Positions 6,793-36,934 of a stretch of DNA of 64,000 nucleotides are shown piece by piece. The notes below the pieces were generated by a model. That model was not told the DNA's origin. It made no database searches and saw only the letters and a list, made by a program, of their open reading frames with translations. The DNA is from a virus, in IMG/VR virus record IMGVR_UViG_3300046003_004989, positions 62,001-126,000 of that record; one strand, 5' to 3'. A program made the position numbers and the translations under genes. Numbering within the stretch: the stretch's first letter is position 1; each line of letters opens with the position of its first letter.

Positions 6793-9700
6793 TTAACTAC
6801 TAAACATTCCTTCGGATTTTGTTTTAATAGTTACAGAGGTTAATGCTTGAGTGAATGCTCTTTGTAGATCAGCTACTGATATTTGATTACCTTTAGCAGG
6901 TACTTGATTTGTAGGCGCATTGCCTTTTGGTGCTGGACCAGTTGCGGTAGGGGTTGCTGGAGCTGCTTGAGTTCCTGCAGTTTGAGCACCACCTCCACCA
7001 GCTCCATTTAATTCTTTTATAGCAGCTACGAGTTCCTCAAATGCGGATTTGATAGATTCATCTATTTGACTAGCGATTGCTTCAGGATTCTTAGCTAAGA
7101 TTGCTAAAGATTTCATCATAGAATCTGTCAATGTAAGTTTTTTCAAATCGAACGAATTAACGTGCTCTTTGAATAACTTCATCGATTTTTGAATCTTGTC
7201 AAAATTATCAGCTAATTTAGTCATTTGATCTGTAGTATCTGCCATTGTTTGTAGATTAGTAGCAAATGCCGAGAAGTAATAACTAATCTTAGGCATATTT
7301 GGATTGAGTTTTGGATCGAATGCATTATTTACTTGAGATAAGAATGCATTGATGGATTGTCCAGTTTTATCAACATCTTTTAATTTACCCCATGCTTCAA
7401 CTGGTTTAGCTGCATCAGCCAAAGCAGATGTCATATCAGGCAGAACATCTAAAGCAGAATCAACTGCTGATCGATTAGCTTCAACTAATCTTCCAGTGGA
7501 TGCAATTCCATGAACTAAAAGCGATAAGATAGTTTGAAGATTAAATGCAGCTTTCTTAAAGTCACTTGAGTTCATTTTTCTTGTTGAAACTGGAACTAAC
7601 TGACCTTTACTGTCAACCTTATATGTTGTGATTTCTGAATTTGCTAATTTAATAACTGCATCGGCAACTGATGATATATTTTGTCCTAGACCTTGAATCG
7701 CTTGAACACCTTTCTTAACATATCCATCCGAGAACCAACCTTCTGAATTGTCTTCCATTTCACCAATTTTAGCAATCTCTCTTGCAAGGAATCCTGTTAT
7801 CATTCCAATATTAACAGCTGCAGTAACGAAGTCTGTAGGATTCATTTTTCTAACAGATTTGATAACTAATTGTGGCTTACCGTCGATCATCTTAACTTCA
7901 TTTTCGACAAGTTCCATGTTTGCCATTTTCTGAATTACTTCAGCCATAGCAAGTAAGTTATCTCCAAGACCAGCAATAGATTCAACCCCTTTAGATACAA
8001 ATCCTCCTGAGAAGATACCAGAAGAATCTGATTCCATTTTACCGATTTTAGCTAATTCGTTAGCTAAGAAACCAGTTACCATTCCTATATTGAGAGATGC
8101 AGAAACAAAATCAGATGTAGACATTTTTCTAACTGATTTCGGAACGATCTTAGCATCTTTTGTACCAGCATTAACAACTTCATATTCGGTGATTTCCAAA
8201 TTAGCCCAAGCTTTAACTCCTTGAGCCAAATTAACGAGAGTATCACCTGAATTTTTAAGTGCATCAACACCTTCAGCAACTAAACCACCACCAAATATTG
8301 CATCGTATAGTGGATCTCCTGAAGATTTACCTCGATTAAGCATACCAACTTTTGCGAAAGGTGCAGCAATAGCTGAAATAACAAGTGCCATTCCGTTAGC
8401 TGCATTTTCAAAGTCAGACTTACCAAGTTTTCTCTTATTTTTAATTACAAGTTTTGCTTTTGCTGTTCCACCATTGATAACTTCCCATTCAGTTACTTCC
8501 AAATTAGCCCAAGCTTGAACACCTTCAGCTAATGAAGCAAGAACAGAACCAGCACCAGAAAGTGCTGCAACTCCAAGCATAAAGTCGAACCAATTAACAT
8601 TGATTCCCATTTTCTTTTGAGCTTCTTTATCTGTGATTATAGAGAATGCTCTAACAATTCCACCAATAGCATATTGTAGATTATCACTATCTCCTTGATT
8701 GAATCCAATTTTCTTAAATATTGCTAGACCAGCAGAAATTGATATTAGAGCAAGACCTGCAAGAATCATAGGTCCTACTGTGATAAGAAGTAAAGCGGCT
8801 CTAGCTGCTGCGGCTGCAGCAAATTTAAGTCCTTCAATAATTCCTCCTGGCATATCACCTCCAAGGAAACCAGAAACTACAGATCCTAAAGCATTCTTTA
8901 AACTCTCACCATCTTCATTCTTCCAACCGATAGCTTTAAATACTGCTAATCCACCAGAAAGAAGGAGAAGTGAGATACCTGCAACCATCATTGCGGCTGA
9001 ACCAGCAATAATAAATGGTGAAGCAAGACCTGCAAGACCCATTACAATACCTAATCCACCAATAGTTGCACCTAAAACTAGTGCATCATCCATTGTGAAT
9101 TTAGCTGCTTTGAATAGGACAAGACCTACAGAAATAAGAATTAATGAGATTGCAGCGATTGTCATACCAATAGCACCTTGAATAATTACTGAACCGAATG
9201 CTCCAGCAAGAGCCATTGCTACTGCCAATCCACCAACAGTAAGACCTAGAATGAGAGCATCATCCATTGTCATATTAGCTGCTTTATAGACCATTAAACC
9301 TACTCCTAAAAGAATAAGAGAGAATGAAACTATAAGAAGTGCTATAGCACCTTTAGCAATATCTTTCCAGAATTGACCTATAAAATAGAATACTGCTGCA
9401 AATCCAGCAATTGTAATAATTGCATATAGAGAATCTTGTGGAGTTACCATCATTGAAAATAGAACAATAGATAGACCGAACAAGATAATACCAAGTGAAG
9501 TATAGAGAAGTGATTTTACTCCATGTCTAACAGTGTCTGTTCCCATAACATAAAGTGCTATAGAAAGACCTAACATAGAAAGTGTAACTGCTAATGTACC
9601 CATAAGAATCATAGGTGCCATCATAGAAACGACTACCATCGTTAAAGCGTATAAAATTACACCTAATGCAATTTTAAGAGGAACTTTAGCTCTTGCTTCT

Positions 9701-10431
9701 GCTTCTTCCGGTTTCCCGAAAGTACCCATCGTTAAGAATAGAAGTCGTATGGTTAACCCAAATAGAACTGTACCTATCATAACAATTGGAGCCATGATAG
9801 TATAAAGAATCATAGTCAATCCAAAGATAAGAACACCTTTACCTAGTCCTGCGACTGCTGCCATACCTTTAGCAGAATCTTCATCTACAGTTCCAGCAGT
9901 AGTCATTAAAAGTCTTACAGTTAGTCCGAATAGAACTGCTCCTATCATTGCAAGAGGAGCCATAATAGAATAGAGTGTTAGGTATGCACCAAACTTAAGG
10001 ATATTCGAACCTAGACCATTGATGAGTAGACCCATAGCCTCAGCTTTTTTCGGATCTACATCAGCCATTGCATCATTTAGATTAGTGAAGAATTTTTTAA
10101 GTTTATCTCCAGCTTTATCATCTAACTTATTAACAGCTTTGATAATTTTTTCTAATCCGTTTGCTAGACCTCCGAGCAATTCTTTAAATGCTTTTGGATC
10201 TCCTCCAGTAGCATCATTCATCGCAGCATCTTTCATCTTAGCCTCAATAGACATTAAGATGTTAGTTTGCTTCTTTAGCTCGGCAGATACCTCCGTTTTT
10301 GTGACGGTATCTATCGAGCTTAGAAGTAATAGTGAATTTTCATTTGTAGTTTTAGCAGATTCCACCATGGCATCCATCTTCTTGAGGATACTCATCATAG
10401 AACTGTTTACATCTTCTTGCCTTACAGCCAT
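6793..10431 (-). CDS. Putative tail tape measure protein
   Basis: A 1212-residue protein, the longest in the window. It lies directly downstream of two genes that look like tail-assembly chaperones, the standard position of a tape measure. Residues 1-130 are helical and charged. Residues 140-560 are a series of long hydrophobic helices with internal duplications (for example NMTMDDALILG and KFTMDDALVLG, and two copies of IMAPxxMIGxVLFGLT). Residues 640-1010 hold about four divergent repeats of 100 residues, each with a [LM]AN[LM]E or LANSE block, an SxRKM segment and a phenylalanine-rich helix. The C-terminus is Pro/Gly/Thr-rich. At roughly 1.5 angstrom per residue the length would fit a tail near 180 nm, which is an inference. 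Confidence 0.7.
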   Translation of the reverse strand: MAVRQEDVNSSMMSILKKMDAMVESAKTTNENSLLLLSSIDTVTKTEVSAELKKQTNILMSIEAKMKDAAMNDATGGDPKAFKELLGGLANGLEKIIKAVNKLDDKAGDKLKKFFTNLNDAMADVDPKKAEAMGLLINGLGSNILKFGAYLTLYSIMAPLAMIGAVLFGLTVRLLMTTAGTVDEDSAKGMAAVAGLGKGVLIFGLTMILYTIMAPIVMIGTVLFGLTIRLLFLTMGTFGKPEEAEARAKVPLKIALGVILYALTMVVVSMMAPMILMGTLAVTLSMLGLSIALYVMGTDTVRHGVKSLLYTSLGIILFGLSIVLFSMMVTPQDSLYAIITIAGFAAVFYFIGQFWKDIAKGAIALLIVSFSLILLGVGLMVYKAANMTMDDALILGLTVGGLAVAMALAGAFGSVIIQGAIGMTIAAISLILISVGLVLFKAAKFTMDDALVLGATIGGLGIVMGLAGLASPFIIAGSAAMMVAGISLLLLSGGLAVFKAIGWKNEDGESLKNALGSVVSGFLGGDMPGGIIEGLKFAAAAAARAALLLITVGPMILAGLALISISAGLAIFKKIGFNQGDSDNLQYAIGGIVRAFSIITDKEAQKKMGINVNWFDFMLGVAALSGAGSVLASLAEGVQAWANLEVTEWEVINGGTAKAKLVIKNKRKLGKSDFENAANGMALVISAIAAPFAKVGMLNRGKSSGDPLYDAIFGGGLVAEGVDALKNSGDTLVNLAQGVKAWANLEITEYEVVNAGTKDAKIVPKSVRKMSTSDFVSASLNIGMVTGFLANELAKIGKMESDSSGIFSGGFVSKGVESIAGLGDNLLAMAEVIQKMANMELVENEVKMIDGKPQLVIKSVRKMNPTDFVTAAVNIGMITGFLAREIAKIGEMEDNSEGWFSDGYVKKGVQAIQGLGQNISSVADAVIKLANSEITTYKVDSKGQLVPVSTRKMNSSDFKKAAFNLQTILSLLVHGIASTGRLVEANRSAVDSALDVLPDMTSALADAAKPVEAWGKLKDVDKTGQSINAFLSQVNNAFDPKLNPNMPKISYYFSAFATNLQTMADTTDQMTKLADNFDKIQKSMKLFKEHVNSFDLKKLTLTDSMMKSLAILAKNPEAIASQIDESIKSAFEELVAAIKELNGAGGGGAQTAGTQAAPATPTATGPAPKGNAPTNQVPAKGNQISVADLQRAFTQALTSVTIKTKSEGMFSS

Positions 10432-10440
10432 TTATTTAGA

Positions 10441-10758
10441 CTATATTTTTAAAGAAGAGGGGATCCCAGGGAAAGATGCCGGTGAATAAGTATTCATATT
10501 TGGCATTTTCGGTGTTTTCATACCTCCAGGAAGATTACGGCTTGCATCTTTCATTAACTGTCCAGGTGACATATCTTTATATTGCTTAGATTGGCCTTCT
10601 TCTGCTTCCTGTTTTTCTTTTAGTATATCTATCAGGTTTTGTACGATAAATTCGTATTCATAGAAAGGAAGTTGTTCAACTTCCGAAGGTTGCAATCTAA
10701 GATGGTATAGAAGATACGTCTTAGTCTTAAAGAAGTTCTCCAGAGATATCTGAAACAA
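10441..10758 (-). CDS. Tail-assembly chaperone C-terminal frame (frameshift partner)
   Basis: A 105-codon frame that overlaps the end of the gp26-like gene in a different register. The only independent start is TTG at 10758, with no ribosome site at a good distance and no ATG until residue 63. The upstream gene ends CTT TAA G preceded by GGAGAA; a +1 slip at CTT would enter this frame at KTKTYLLYHLRLQP, giving a fused product, as in lambda G/GT-type chaperones. The product contains EVEQLPFYEYEFIVQNLIDIL and a Pro/Met-rich tail (PGGMKTPKMPNMN). It is placed between the gp26-like gene and the tape measure, as T4 gp51 is near gp26, but homology to gp51 is not claimed. Confidence 0.6.
   Translation of the reverse strand: MFQISLENFFKTKTYLLYHLRLQPSEVEQLPFYEYEFIVQNLIDILKEKQEAEEGQSKQYKDMSPGQLMKDASRNLPGGMKTPKMPNMNTYSPASFPGIPSSLKI
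10727..10741 (-). other. Candidate +1 programmed frameshift site (CTT TAA G)
   Basis: The minus strand reads GGAGAA CTT CTT TAA G. The layout matches the bacterial prfB site: a purine-rich Shine-Dalgarno-like stretch, a CTT P-site codon and a stop. Skipping one T moves the ribosome into the 105-codon frame, which is open across the site. Confidence 0.5.
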
Positions 10759-11692
10759 CGAAAAGACTTTTGATGCCTCCGGGAAAGCTAATGGGAGTGG
10801 TTACCTCGGAACCACATTTTTCGCATTCTTTCTTTAAAATTTCTTTAACACCAATTCTACACATATCTGTTAATGAATACATTGTTTGATATTTAGTAGA
10901 ACTCCAAGACATAAATTCAATCTCTAAGTTATTGATTGCTGCTTCATTGAAACCTCTCCATTCTAATTGTAAGTATGGAAGAACTTTGATAAATGATTGG
11001 TCAAGTTTCTTTCCTTCTTGTTGACGTTTTTGGATGTATTTTGTTACTTCCATCATAACACCAATTGAAGGTGGAGTCATGATAATTGTACCATTTGACT
11101 TCGTTTGAATTTCAAATCTACGAGTTTCTTCATTGTAGTATTTTTCCATTTTTTGGTCTACTTCATTATGCTCGAAAGATTCGTTAGTTATTTTAACTTC
11201 ATTTTCATGATTACACTCTTTACAAGGAGTTTTGATAATCAATTGATTTTCACCTTTAGGGAATGTCAAATCTCTTACCGCAAGAATCAAGTGGATTCTG
11301 TCTTCTTCTCGTAAGTCTTTAAATGACATTTGTCTATTAGGTTGTCTAATCATTAAACAAGATTTCAAGATTTCATTTAATGCTTCATCAATAGAAAATG
11401 GATCTTGTTCATTAATGGTAGAAAAGTGTCTTACTTCTCGAACTTCTGCTGAACGGATAAAAAATCTAGTTCCAGTAGGATAGAAAAGTCCTTTTGATGG
11501 GAAGTTCTCTGACCAAGTTTCGATGTAGCCAGGAAGTAAAGCTGGTTCATCACGTCCTTCATTTTCATAGCCTGTTGCTTTTCCAAGTGAAGTAATTTTT
11601 GGTTGTTCTTGTTGTGTTTCTTCAGTCTGATTTGCATTGAATTCTCTTGATTCCATGTCTCTTTCAGCTGCGTTTTCAAATTCTTTACTCAT
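10727..11692 (-). CDS. T4 gp26-like baseplate hub / tail-assembly chaperone
   Basis: A 321-residue protein of the T4 gp26 baseplate family (Pfam T4_baseplate type). After a variable N-terminus, it has FPSKGLFYPTGTRFFIRSAEVREVRHF (near residues 68-95), a helical block with DEALNEILKSCLM, and LREEDRIHLILAVRDLTFP. A zinc-ribbon insertion CKECNHENEV and a second pair CEKCGSEVTTP near the C-terminus frame the domain. Longer than T4 gp26 (about 208 aa). Position before the tape measure and a possible frameshift at its stop codon indicate a chaperone role in tail assembly. It starts inside the end of the ribbon-helix-helix gene (8-bp overlap). Confidence 0.7.
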   Translation of the reverse strand: MSKEFENAAERDMESREFNANQTEETQQEQPKITSLGKATGYENEGRDEPALLPGYIETWSENFPSKGLFYPTGTRFFIRSAEVREVRHFSTINEQDPFSIDEALNEILKSCLMIRQPNRQMSFKDLREEDRIHLILAVRDLTFPKGENQLIIKTPCKECNHENEVKITNESFEHNEVDQKMEKYYNEETRRFEIQTKSNGTIIMTPPSIGVMMEVTKYIQKRQQEGKKLDQSFIKVLPYLQLEWRGFNEAAINNLEIEFMSWSSTKYQTMYSLTDMCRIGVKEILKKECEKCGSEVTTPISFPGGIKSLFVVSDISGELL

Positions 11693-34408: not shown

Positions 34409-34870
34409 ATGGCATTTGTTCCTTATCATCAACATCTCCTCATTAAAGCTTACTGTAAGAATCCTATTCGTTCGGCAGCTGTATTAAATGAGTGGTTCAA
34501 GCAATTGGTAAACAAAGTCGGTATGGTTGTAGTTGCAGGTCCCACCTCAGTATACGTGGATGAACCTGGAAACGAAGGACTAACCGGTACAGTAACCCTT
34601 GCAACTTCGCATGCATCGATCCATATTTGGGACGAATCTCAACCAGCAATGCTACAATTTGACATCTATTCTTGTAAGAAGTATGACATTCAAATTGTTA
34701 TCGATCACTTAAATGAAATGGATTTAATTTCGTTCGATTGGATGACTATTGATAGAAATGACGGTATTGAAGTATCAGATTTTGGTACAGGTATCGAATC
34801 TACTTACACGTCAACATCAGCTCTTAAAAGATTAGACAATCTAACAGAGTACCATCAAGATGAAGAGTAA
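34409..34870 (+). CDS. speD: S-adenosylmethionine decarboxylase-like protein (SpeD/SpeH)
   Basis: The only plus-strand gene. The 153-residue product has the fold signature of prokaryotic AdoMet decarboxylase: HLLIKAYCKNP, then TLATSHASIHIWDE and QFDIYSCKKYD. Residues equivalent to the self-cleavage serine, the processing histidine and the catalytic cysteine are present (Ser67, His72, Cys89). The residue before the serine is Thr, where the family normally has Glu, so autoprocessing to the pyruvoyl form may differ. An active enzyme would supply decarboxylated AdoMet for spermidine synthesis; polyamines help condense phage DNA. Similar genes are known in cyanophages. No plus-strand promoter is obvious. 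Confidence 0.75.
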   Translation: MAFVPYHQHLLIKAYCKNPIRSAAVLNEWFKQLVNKVGMVVVAGPTSVYVDEPGNEGLTGTVTLATSHASIHIWDESQPAMLQFDIYSCKKYDIQIVIDHLNEMDLISFDWMTIDRNDGIEVSDFGTGIESTYTSTSALKRLDNLTEYHQDEE

Positions 34871-35440: not shown

Positions 35441-36934
35441 TTATTTCTTTTCTGATTCAAATTTGATACCTGCATGACTAACTCCTTTAGATTTACCTGC
35501 ATGATATTCGCCATCAAATGATGTTACCATGAAAGTTTTGTAAGGAGAAACTGAACAACCGATTCTTTCCATGAATTTACGATTAGCAAGGAATTTAGTA
35601 GATTTTTCTTTTCTGTCTACTAGAGAAACGTGTACATCTTTATAAGTTTTACCACCGAAAGAAACTTCCATTTCGATGATGGGACGATTATGAATATCAT
35701 CACCTACTTCGGTATTTGCAAAGCCTATAACTTTTGATTCGAATGAATTATTACCAAGTTTCCACTTTACAGTTTTTTCATCTTCAGATAATTTAACTTC
35801 GTCATATGTTAGAGAACAAGACATAGAGCCATTACCAGTGTCGAATTTAGCAACAATATCACCAATTCCAGGGATTGTGATAACTTCTCGGAAACCAATA
35901 ACTCTCTTAGAACGAATCCAATTTGCTTTATCTGATATGAAGTCTATTACATCAGAAACAACATCAATACCTGTAGCTTTTTTCAAACCGTGAGTTCCTG
36001 GAGAAGCATTAACTTCTAGAACATAGTTTTTACCGGTTTTCTTATCAACAATAATGTCAACTCCACACCAGTTACAACCTACTGCTTTAGCTGATTCGAT
36101 TGCTATTCTTTCTTGTTCAGGAGTAACTTTAGTTTTTTCTACGGTACCACCTAAAGAATAATTTGTACGGAAGTCTTTCTTAACTCGATTTCTTCTCATA
36201 TATCCAAGAAGAACCGAATCAGTGTCTTGTGGAGTAGGAGAATTGAAACGTCTAGTTAAAACGTGAATACGTAAGTCATATTCAGAGTCTATTTTTTCTT
36301 GAATAAGAGTTTCAATATTTGGTTGTACTTTCCAAAGAGTTTGAAGTACAGATTTCAAAGAAGCGAGAGAATCAACGATTGATACACCAATACCTTGAGA
36401 TCCAGAAAGTAATTTGAGGACTACTGGAAATTGTCCACCAATTGCTTTAACAGCTCCATCAATCGATTCTTCGGAATCAACAATTGCCATTTTAGGGACA
36501 GGAATACCTGCATCCATTAGAATTTTAGAAGTAACGTATTTGTTTTCACAAGCAAGAACTGATTCTAATGTGTTAACTACGAAGAAGTTTGCATCTTCCA
36601 ATTGAGAAACCAAATCTCTTGTGAAAGTACTTCTTACAATACCACGTCTAGTTAGGATTGCTGTGTCTTCAGAATCTATCTTAAATGGTTTTTTAGTTTT
36701 GTCAACTATTATGAATCCATTACCATCTTTGTCAGGTACTAGATTTGCAGTATTGATGTCAATTATACGGAATTGTACACCTCTCTTTTTACATTCAGCT
36801 TCAACTGCTGGAACTGTGTAAGATTCTTCACTAATATTAGATAGAAGAACAAGTTTTACTTTTTGTTTCTTCGCTGAGGTTTTAACTGCCTCATTGATTA
36901 CGAATTCATCAAAGTATGCTAGACGATTTTTCAT
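35441..36934 (-). CDS. RimK-type ATP-grasp ligase fused to retropepsin-like protease, with CTS leader
   Basis: A 497-residue multidomain enzyme. Residues 1-15 (MKNRLAYFDEFVINE) form a capsid-targeting leader with a predicted cut after INE. A RimK-like pre-ATP-grasp domain spans about 25-125. The ATP-grasp domain spans about 126-335, with nucleotide lysine in VVLKLLSGSQGIGV (Lys173), DLRIHVL, NYSLGGTVE and the Mg-binding VLEVNASPG (Glu307, Asn309). The C-terminal domain (about 345-475) resembles the aspartic/zinc protease domain often linked to RimK, with the DTG motif in AKFDTGNGSMS (365-367). RimK enzymes add glutamates to protein C-termini. Location in the head and substrate are inferred. 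Confidence 0.8.
   Translation of the reverse strand: MKNRLAYFDEFVINEAVKTSAKKQKVKLVLLSNISEESYTVPAVEAECKKRGVQFRIIDINTANLVPDKDGNGFIIVDKTKKPFKIDSEDTAILTRRGIVRSTFTRDLVSQLEDANFFVVNTLESVLACENKYVTSKILMDAGIPVPKMAIVDSEESIDGAVKAIGGQFPVVLKLLSGSQGIGVSIVDSLASLKSVLQTLWKVQPNIETLIQEKIDSEYDLRIHVLTRRFNSPTPQDTDSVLLGYMRRNRVKKDFRTNYSLGGTVEKTKVTPEQERIAIESAKAVGCNWCGVDIIVDKKTGKNYVLEVNASPGTHGLKKATGIDVVSDVIDFISDKANWIRSKRVIGFREVITIPGIGDIVAKFDTGNGSMSCSLTYDEVKLSEDEKTVKWKLGNNSFESKVIGFANTEVGDDIHNRPIIEMEVSFGGKTYKDVHVSLVDRKEKSTKFLANRKFMERIGCSVSPYKTFMVTSFDGEYHAGKSKGVSHAGIKFESEKK

Follow-up and report, generated by a model that had tools for sequence, protein, structure and literature searches.

Results

A short and a long reading frame upstream of a presumed tape measure gene

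The window analysed here is a 64 kb stretch of a 144,480-bp virus record. On its minus strand, a short ORF and an overlapping ORF in another phase lie directly upstream of a presumed tape measure gene (Table 1), which is a G/GT-type arrangement. The short, gp26-like ORF ends ...GAT ATC TCT GGA GAA CTT CTT TAA G, with its stop codon at 10729-10727. The frame that follows is offset by +1, or equivalently by -2. It is open from 10800 to a TAG at 10441. Near its beginning, the sole ATG, GTG or TTG is the TTG at 10758, which lacks a ribosome site at normal spacing. A library search with the 1212-aa protein encoded downstream gave no match, and we presume from its size and position that it is the tape measure.

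A preliminary description of the locus had given the same junction, with the +1 frame open across the stop and no ATG near the start of the downstream frame, where it had rightly found the TTG unconvincing for want of a suitable ribosome site. It had also taken the gene for a tail-assembly chaperone preceding the tape measure, an assignment borne out by a near-match to PF12322, by homology to gp51 and by position.

Table 1. Features of the chaperone locus in the window
Feature	Position	Strand	Basis
gp26-like gene, short tail-assembly chaperone (TAC-N), 321 aa	10727..11692	minus	PF12322 near-match; adjoins presumed tape measure
+1-frame segment of the long form (SLFQISLENFFK...SSLKI), T-like C-terminal domain	10444..10761	minus	homology to gp51 C-terminus; phrog_634
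Overlap, both frames read (frame 0 FVVSDISGELL*; +1 frame SLFQISLENFFK)	10727..10762	minus	substitution classes
CTT CTT TAA, shift site of the preliminary description, here the ordinary short-form end	10727..10735	minus	dual coding
Proposed slip site T-CTT-TTC (frame 0: AGT CTT TTC GTT)	10760..10766	minus	conservation beyond coding
RNA hairpin GTGGTT-CCGAGGT-AACCAC, GAGG in loop, candidate stimulatory element	10797..10815	minus	energy and compensatory changes
Presumed tape measure, 1212 aa, hydrophobic repeats	6793..10431	minus	size and position

The two frames encode a homologue of the T4 gp26/gp51 pair

The gp26-like protein gave a near-match to PF12322, T4_baseplate (E 4e-5, 23.9 bits; cut-off 24.5), a family matched by both T4 gp26 and T4 gp51. 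It also shares phrog_13792 with T4 gp26. T4 gp51 consists of a gp26-like protein and a C-terminal extension, and the extension matches phrog_634. The +1 frames of the window and its relatives matched phrog_634, 'baseplate hub assembly catalyst', weakly (five of eight members, best E 0.0027). When the +1-frame profile was compared by hhalign with a profile of -1-frame gp51 from cyanophages and others plus the T4 gp51 C-terminus, the match had a probability of 92.8% (E 3.9e-7). These comparisons indicate that a real domain is encoded in the +1 frame, a homologue of the C-terminal extension in T4 gp51. Together, the near-match to PF12322 and the phrog_634 and hhalign matches identify the gp26-like ORF and the +1 frame, by homology, as the short/long tail-assembly-chaperone pair of T4-like phages.

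The +1 phase is conserved among relatives

We gathered 80 contigs with the +1-frame protein and further loci with the gp26 protein. The gp26 stop lies exactly 29 nt past the same reference codon, in the same phase, in 79 of the 80 contigs. Loci gathered by the gp26 protein alone also have the +1 phase (L001-L003, L022, L029, L033, L005/L023 and L116). Among 54 non-redundant relatives, the final gp26 codon is CTT in 53, and in most of them G follows the stop. More distant phages also have the +1 arrangement, but their gp26 genes end in ATT TAA, TTA TGA, TTA TAA, TCT TAA, GAG TAA or GAA TAA. In the huge phage L012 (around 2284), the FSVFTVSWEN part of the long domain is displaced downstream of the gp26 stop, and no standard start codon was found before it. 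This may reflect an insertion inside the shifted region.

The +1 frame is selected upstream of the gp26 stop

Codon statistics were obtained from 52-54 non-redundant relatives. Across 54 sequences, synonymous diversity in the gp26 frame matches that of the whole gene as far as the Gly preceding the site. Closer to the site, one Ile is low (0.18), and Lys and Ser are normal. Diversity is 0.16 of expectation at the slip codon CTT and 0.31 at TTC. Past TTC it is zero at all codons but two (0.24 and 0.52), and changes at these two only turn Gln/Lys into Arg or Phe into Tyr in the +1 frame.

Substitutions placed on a tree gave a similar picture. In the overlap, 46 changes are nonsynonymous in gp26 and synonymous in the +1 frame against 17 expected, and 11 are of the opposite class against 16.4 expected; since most relatives were gathered by a +1-frame peptide pattern (ISLENFFK), counts in the second half of the overlap are biased. 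The search pattern does not reach the first four overlap codons, where 22 changes of the first class were observed against 3 expected. Upstream of the overlap the pattern is reversed, with 147 changes of the first class (226 expected) and 406 of the second (225 expected). Changes in the loci collected by gp26 are of this kind too: GTT to ATT in gp26 is TTG to TTA in the +1 frame, TCT to ACT is TCT to TCA, and GAT to AAT is CAG to CAA.

These data indicate that selection acts on the protein encoded by the +1 frame already upstream of the gp26 stop, and that this frame is translated from about 10762. Because it is selected there, the frame change would already have taken place some 30 nt before CTT CTT TAA. 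Stop codons in the +1 frame of eight relatives, just before offset -30, leave only the 30 nt preceding the reference codon for the shift. They rule out a shift farther upstream, near the hairpin.

A conserved candidate slip site

At the slip position, 47 of the 49 Leu codons are CTT, compared with 22% gene-wide. The T at 10766 is kept in 51 of 52 sequences, though it is synonymous in frame 0 for most. Both observations indicate that T-CTT-TTC is conserved beyond coding needs. Re-pairing of the Phe tRNA from UUC to UUU two bases back fits 50 of the 54 relatives, L072, L100, L058 and L068 being the ones that do not fit. Several lineages have ATT TTC at the slip site, where after a -2 shift Phe would re-pair and Ile would not. 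The +1 arrangement is also found without a good slip site under either direction of shift, at TTG TTC (L072/L075), TTA TTC (L100/L101) and ATC TTT (L058/L068). The codons before CTT-TTC are ATC AAA AGT/TCT, with no Shine-Dalgarno (SD) sequence at 3 nt. The Ile codon three codons upstream of CTT is fixed as ATC (46 of 48), which our model leaves unexplained.

A hairpin with a GAGG loop upstream of the slip site

A hairpin whose loop contains GAGG or GAGGAGG is located 31 nt upstream of CTT-TTC; its centre is some 41 nt from the slip codon. In 30-nt windows, the mean minimum free energy is -9.1 kcal/mol at the hairpin and -2.1 kcal/mol across the gene (z -6.3). A codon-shuffle test across the relatives gave a mean z of -2.2. 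The 52 sequences contain 40 distinct stems, and several pairs are changed on both sides; stem registers were picked by best stem, so that pair counts lean towards pairing. The loop holds GAGG or GGAG in 41 of 52, and its Glu codon is invariably GAG (45 of 45), a codon used for 17% of Glu in the whole gene. Taken by itself, the window's hairpin (-7.0 kcal/mol) is unremarkable against shuffles (z -1.3), and the support is comparative. RNAalifold on ungapped columns returned no structure. The stem register moves by a few bases between lineages, which hampers RNAalifold, and energy-based and register-wise tests were therefore used. Rfam contained no match for the hairpin. It is found at the same spacing in the huge phages L007, L009 and L012; the same scan did not show it at this place in other distant relatives such as PAU, PTm1 and Lak. 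Taken together, the comparisons indicate a hairpin conserved with compensatory changes.

We propose that the hairpin probably helps to set the efficiency of the shift. Its distance of 31 nt from the slip site is far from where known stimulators act. GAGG lies 39 nt from the slip site, too far for an SD-type action, which was therefore rejected. We also considered a pseudoknot of the GAGG loop with the downstream CTTCTTT, on which covariation is uninformative because the downstream side is fixed by dual coding.

L024, L025 and L047 provide a natural control. In these phages gp26 ends separately, and the long domain lies downstream with an ATG aligned to TTG 10758 and the peptide MFKINLENFFKAK. 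The slip-site position reads TCA TTA TTT, and no GAGG hairpin was found. The retention of MFKINLENFFKAK in this decoupled lineage shows, at the level of sequence comparison, that the peptide encoded in the overlap matters. The overlap has been resolved here (L024 4069-5323, L025, L047), apparently via partial duplication; the long domain has gained its own ATG, and slip site and hairpin have been lost.

Proposed mechanism

We propose, with a probability of roughly 0.8, that a programmed shift at U-CUU-UUC, with -2 as the favoured direction, gives the long chaperone, and that the upstream GAGG-loop hairpin probably helps. Some ribosomes translating gp26 would switch frame at U-CUU-UUC (10766-10760) and continue in the +1 phase. 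Most likely they would slip back by two bases, the P-site Leu tRNA moving from CUU onto NUC and the Phe tRNA from UUC onto UUU. A forward slip by one base, from CUU onto UUU, is less likely. The long form (TAC-NC) would have about 417 residues after a -2 shift, or 416 after a +1 shift. Ribosomes that do not shift would stop 10 codons past TTC, at CTT CTT TAA, and release the short form. By analogy with lambda G/GT, the short form would coat the tape measure and the T-like extension would recruit the tail tube.

A more specific version is put forward tentatively. Here a bacterial -2 shift would take place at U-CUU-UUC, and a hairpin 31 nt 5' of the slip codon, with GAGG in its loop, would stimulate it from the upstream side of the ribosome. 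The shift would occur in a large T4-like group, whose named relatives mostly infect Bacteroidota, and the site would have evolved from a -1 site at that codon position.

Alternative explanations

That recoding in the +1 phase joins the two frames, as the preliminary description had suggested, is very probable. The phase is indeed +1, but it fits a -2 shift as well as the single +1 slip envisaged there. At U-CUU-UUC, we favour -2 over +1, by about 2:1, because the tandem slip would use exactly the conserved bases. A forward +1 slip of Leu from CUU to UUU would act at the same place and give a product one residue shorter (..GGIKSLSLFQ..), with the predicted junction peptide SLSLFQISLENFFK. For the -2 shift, the predicted tryptic junction peptide is SLFSLFQISLENFFK, with an extra Phe. 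Among the +1 slippery codons of bacteria, CUU-U, from prfB, is the best known, and the near-invariance of CTT would suit a forward slip. However, such a slip needs no preceding T, would require a mismatch in the ATT-TTC lineages and would lack a stop codon in the A site. In sister phages, the slip at this position appears to be backward. We therefore regard the forward slip as less likely. The preliminary description had instead placed a prfB-like slip at CTT-TAA, where the Leu tRNA would move from CUU to UUU at the stop and yield a product ...SGELLKTKTYLL with the predicted junction peptide SLFVVSDISGELLK. The geometry permits this, most relatives have G after the stop, and GGAG stands 5 nt upstream of that CTT. 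The prfB site has its shift codon directly before the zero-frame stop and an SD-like sequence at 3 nt, but here selection begins about 30 nt before the stop, at T-CTT-TTC, and the GGAG spacing differs. Protein-level selection on the +1 frame upstream of the stop would be unnecessary if that stretch were untranslated, and the LENFFK kept by the decoupled lineage would not be made. Conservation of CTT-TAA had been suggested as a check. It does hold among the close relatives (53/54), but CTT-TAA is absent from distant phages with the same phase. Its conservation is explained by dual coding: frame 0 needs Leu, the +1 frame needs Phe, and no Leu codon other than CTT serves both. A shift at the stop is thus highly improbable.

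The long-form domain (gp51C) might also be started independently, or by coupling, from TTG 10758 or a different weak start. Of the 54 relatives, 29 have a start codon at the position of that TTG, and it is nearly always TTG. The decoupled L024 has its ATG exactly there, and PAU has a plausible ATG past its gp26 stop. However, the choice of TTG or TTA merely tracks Val (GTT) or Ile (ATT) in frame 0, and nearly half of the relatives have TTA. Start codons in the +1 frame of relatives have no universal offset. In five lineages (L022/L039, L029/L040, L041, L005 and L033), the open +1 stretch contains no ATG, GTG or TTG through the codon equivalent to 10758. Because these lineages lack any such codon before the constrained +1 codons, independent initiation appears very unlikely. 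A sequencing error, an indel or a decaying gene might be suspected in a window that is a single uncultivated virus record, but 80 other contigs, and isolated phages too, have the same phase, which refutes this and leaves it a negligible probability.

Other genes in the window

At least seven minus-strand ORFs between 34935 and 53412 share an N-terminal motif like MKNLPSYDQYLNE / MNNIPSYDDFILE / MGLIKSYTEFVNE, which we take to resemble the T4 capsid-targeting sequence. They may encode internal head proteins that are packaged and processed with the prohead. The product of one of them (35441-36934, minus) belongs to the RimK-like ATP-grasp proteins (PF08443, E 2.7e-34), and its C-terminal part matches Zn_protease weakly. 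Were it packaged, this protein could modify proteins of the host during infection. A plus-strand gene among minus-strand genes (34409-34870) encodes S-adenosylmethionine decarboxylase (PF02675, E 5.1e-13), a polyamine gene. Polyamines affect frameshifting in other systems.

Discussion

Phage lambda reportedly makes its tail-assembly chaperones gpG and gpGT by a frameshift (Xu, Hendrix and Duda 2004; reviewed in PMC5009743). The window resembles lambda in having a short chaperone and a probably frameshifted long form upstream of the presumed tape measure; this likeness is one of arrangement. Unlike lambda, where the shift is -1, the window has a +1/-2 phase at U CUU UUC and a conserved upstream hairpin. 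The prfB site is similar in its CUU followed by U and its +1 phase, but selection places the shift in the window away from the stop, and no SD sequence lies 3 nt before the proposed slip codon. Tail-chaperone frameshifts of -1, -2 and +1 occur in different phages, and that of phage Mu is -2 (PMC5009743). If the -2 direction is right, Mu and the window share the same net phase, a likeness in phase and kind of gene. A recoding site is very probable, in a kind of system known from many tailed phages, of which it would be an unusual form. If the -2 shift and the role of the GAGG hairpin are true, this would be a rare yet widespread bacterial -2 site with a stimulator on an unusual side of the ribosome.

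Our search of open-licence papers found no description of a +1 or -2 shift in gp26/gp51, and no earlier account of this phase, slip sequence and RNA element. The chaperones of T4-like phages are the subject of Vladimirov et al. 2022, as relayed in PMC10885494 and PMC12846349. PMC10885494, citing that work, describes some T4-like phages with one short and one long gene and no frameshift. In T4, gp26 and gp51 are homologous, both match PF12322 and gp51 bears a C-terminal extension, as in the window. However, in T4 each form has a gene of its own, 26 and 51 being duplicates, whereas the window would use one gene and a change of frame.

The closest likeness is to the gp26/gp51 of cyanophages and other T4-like phages. 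In P-SSM2, P-TIM68, S-M1, S-MS29, ACG-2014a, S-N03, Vibrio phi-Grn1 and Desulfovibrio phage 7757, the long form lies in the -1 frame at U UUU UUC, at the homologous place. The GAGG hairpin was not found in P-SSM2, the one -1 phage scanned. In cyanophages and others (L035, L117-L122 and L124), gp51 is unannotated or annotated with an arbitrary start past the gp26 stop. Its frame is open upstream to the U UUU UUC site, and their gp51 is therefore probably made by a -1 frameshift. In isolated phages, too, the long-form domain is annotated as a separate small gene whose start is arbitrary, an annotation that can now be corrected. P-SSM2, P-TIM68, S-N03, phi-Grn1 and Desulfovibrio phage 7757 share with the window the gene, the position of the shift and a homologous long domain. 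They differ in that the cyanophage type has a -1 phase at U UUU UUC with a stop 0-1 codons later, whereas the clade of the window would shift by +1/-2 at U CUU UUC with a longer overlap. The window clade would represent a third solution at the same homologous codon position, beside the two reported in T4-like phages, a -1 frameshift and the two genes of T4, which makes it possible to trace how a recoding signal evolves from one phase to another.
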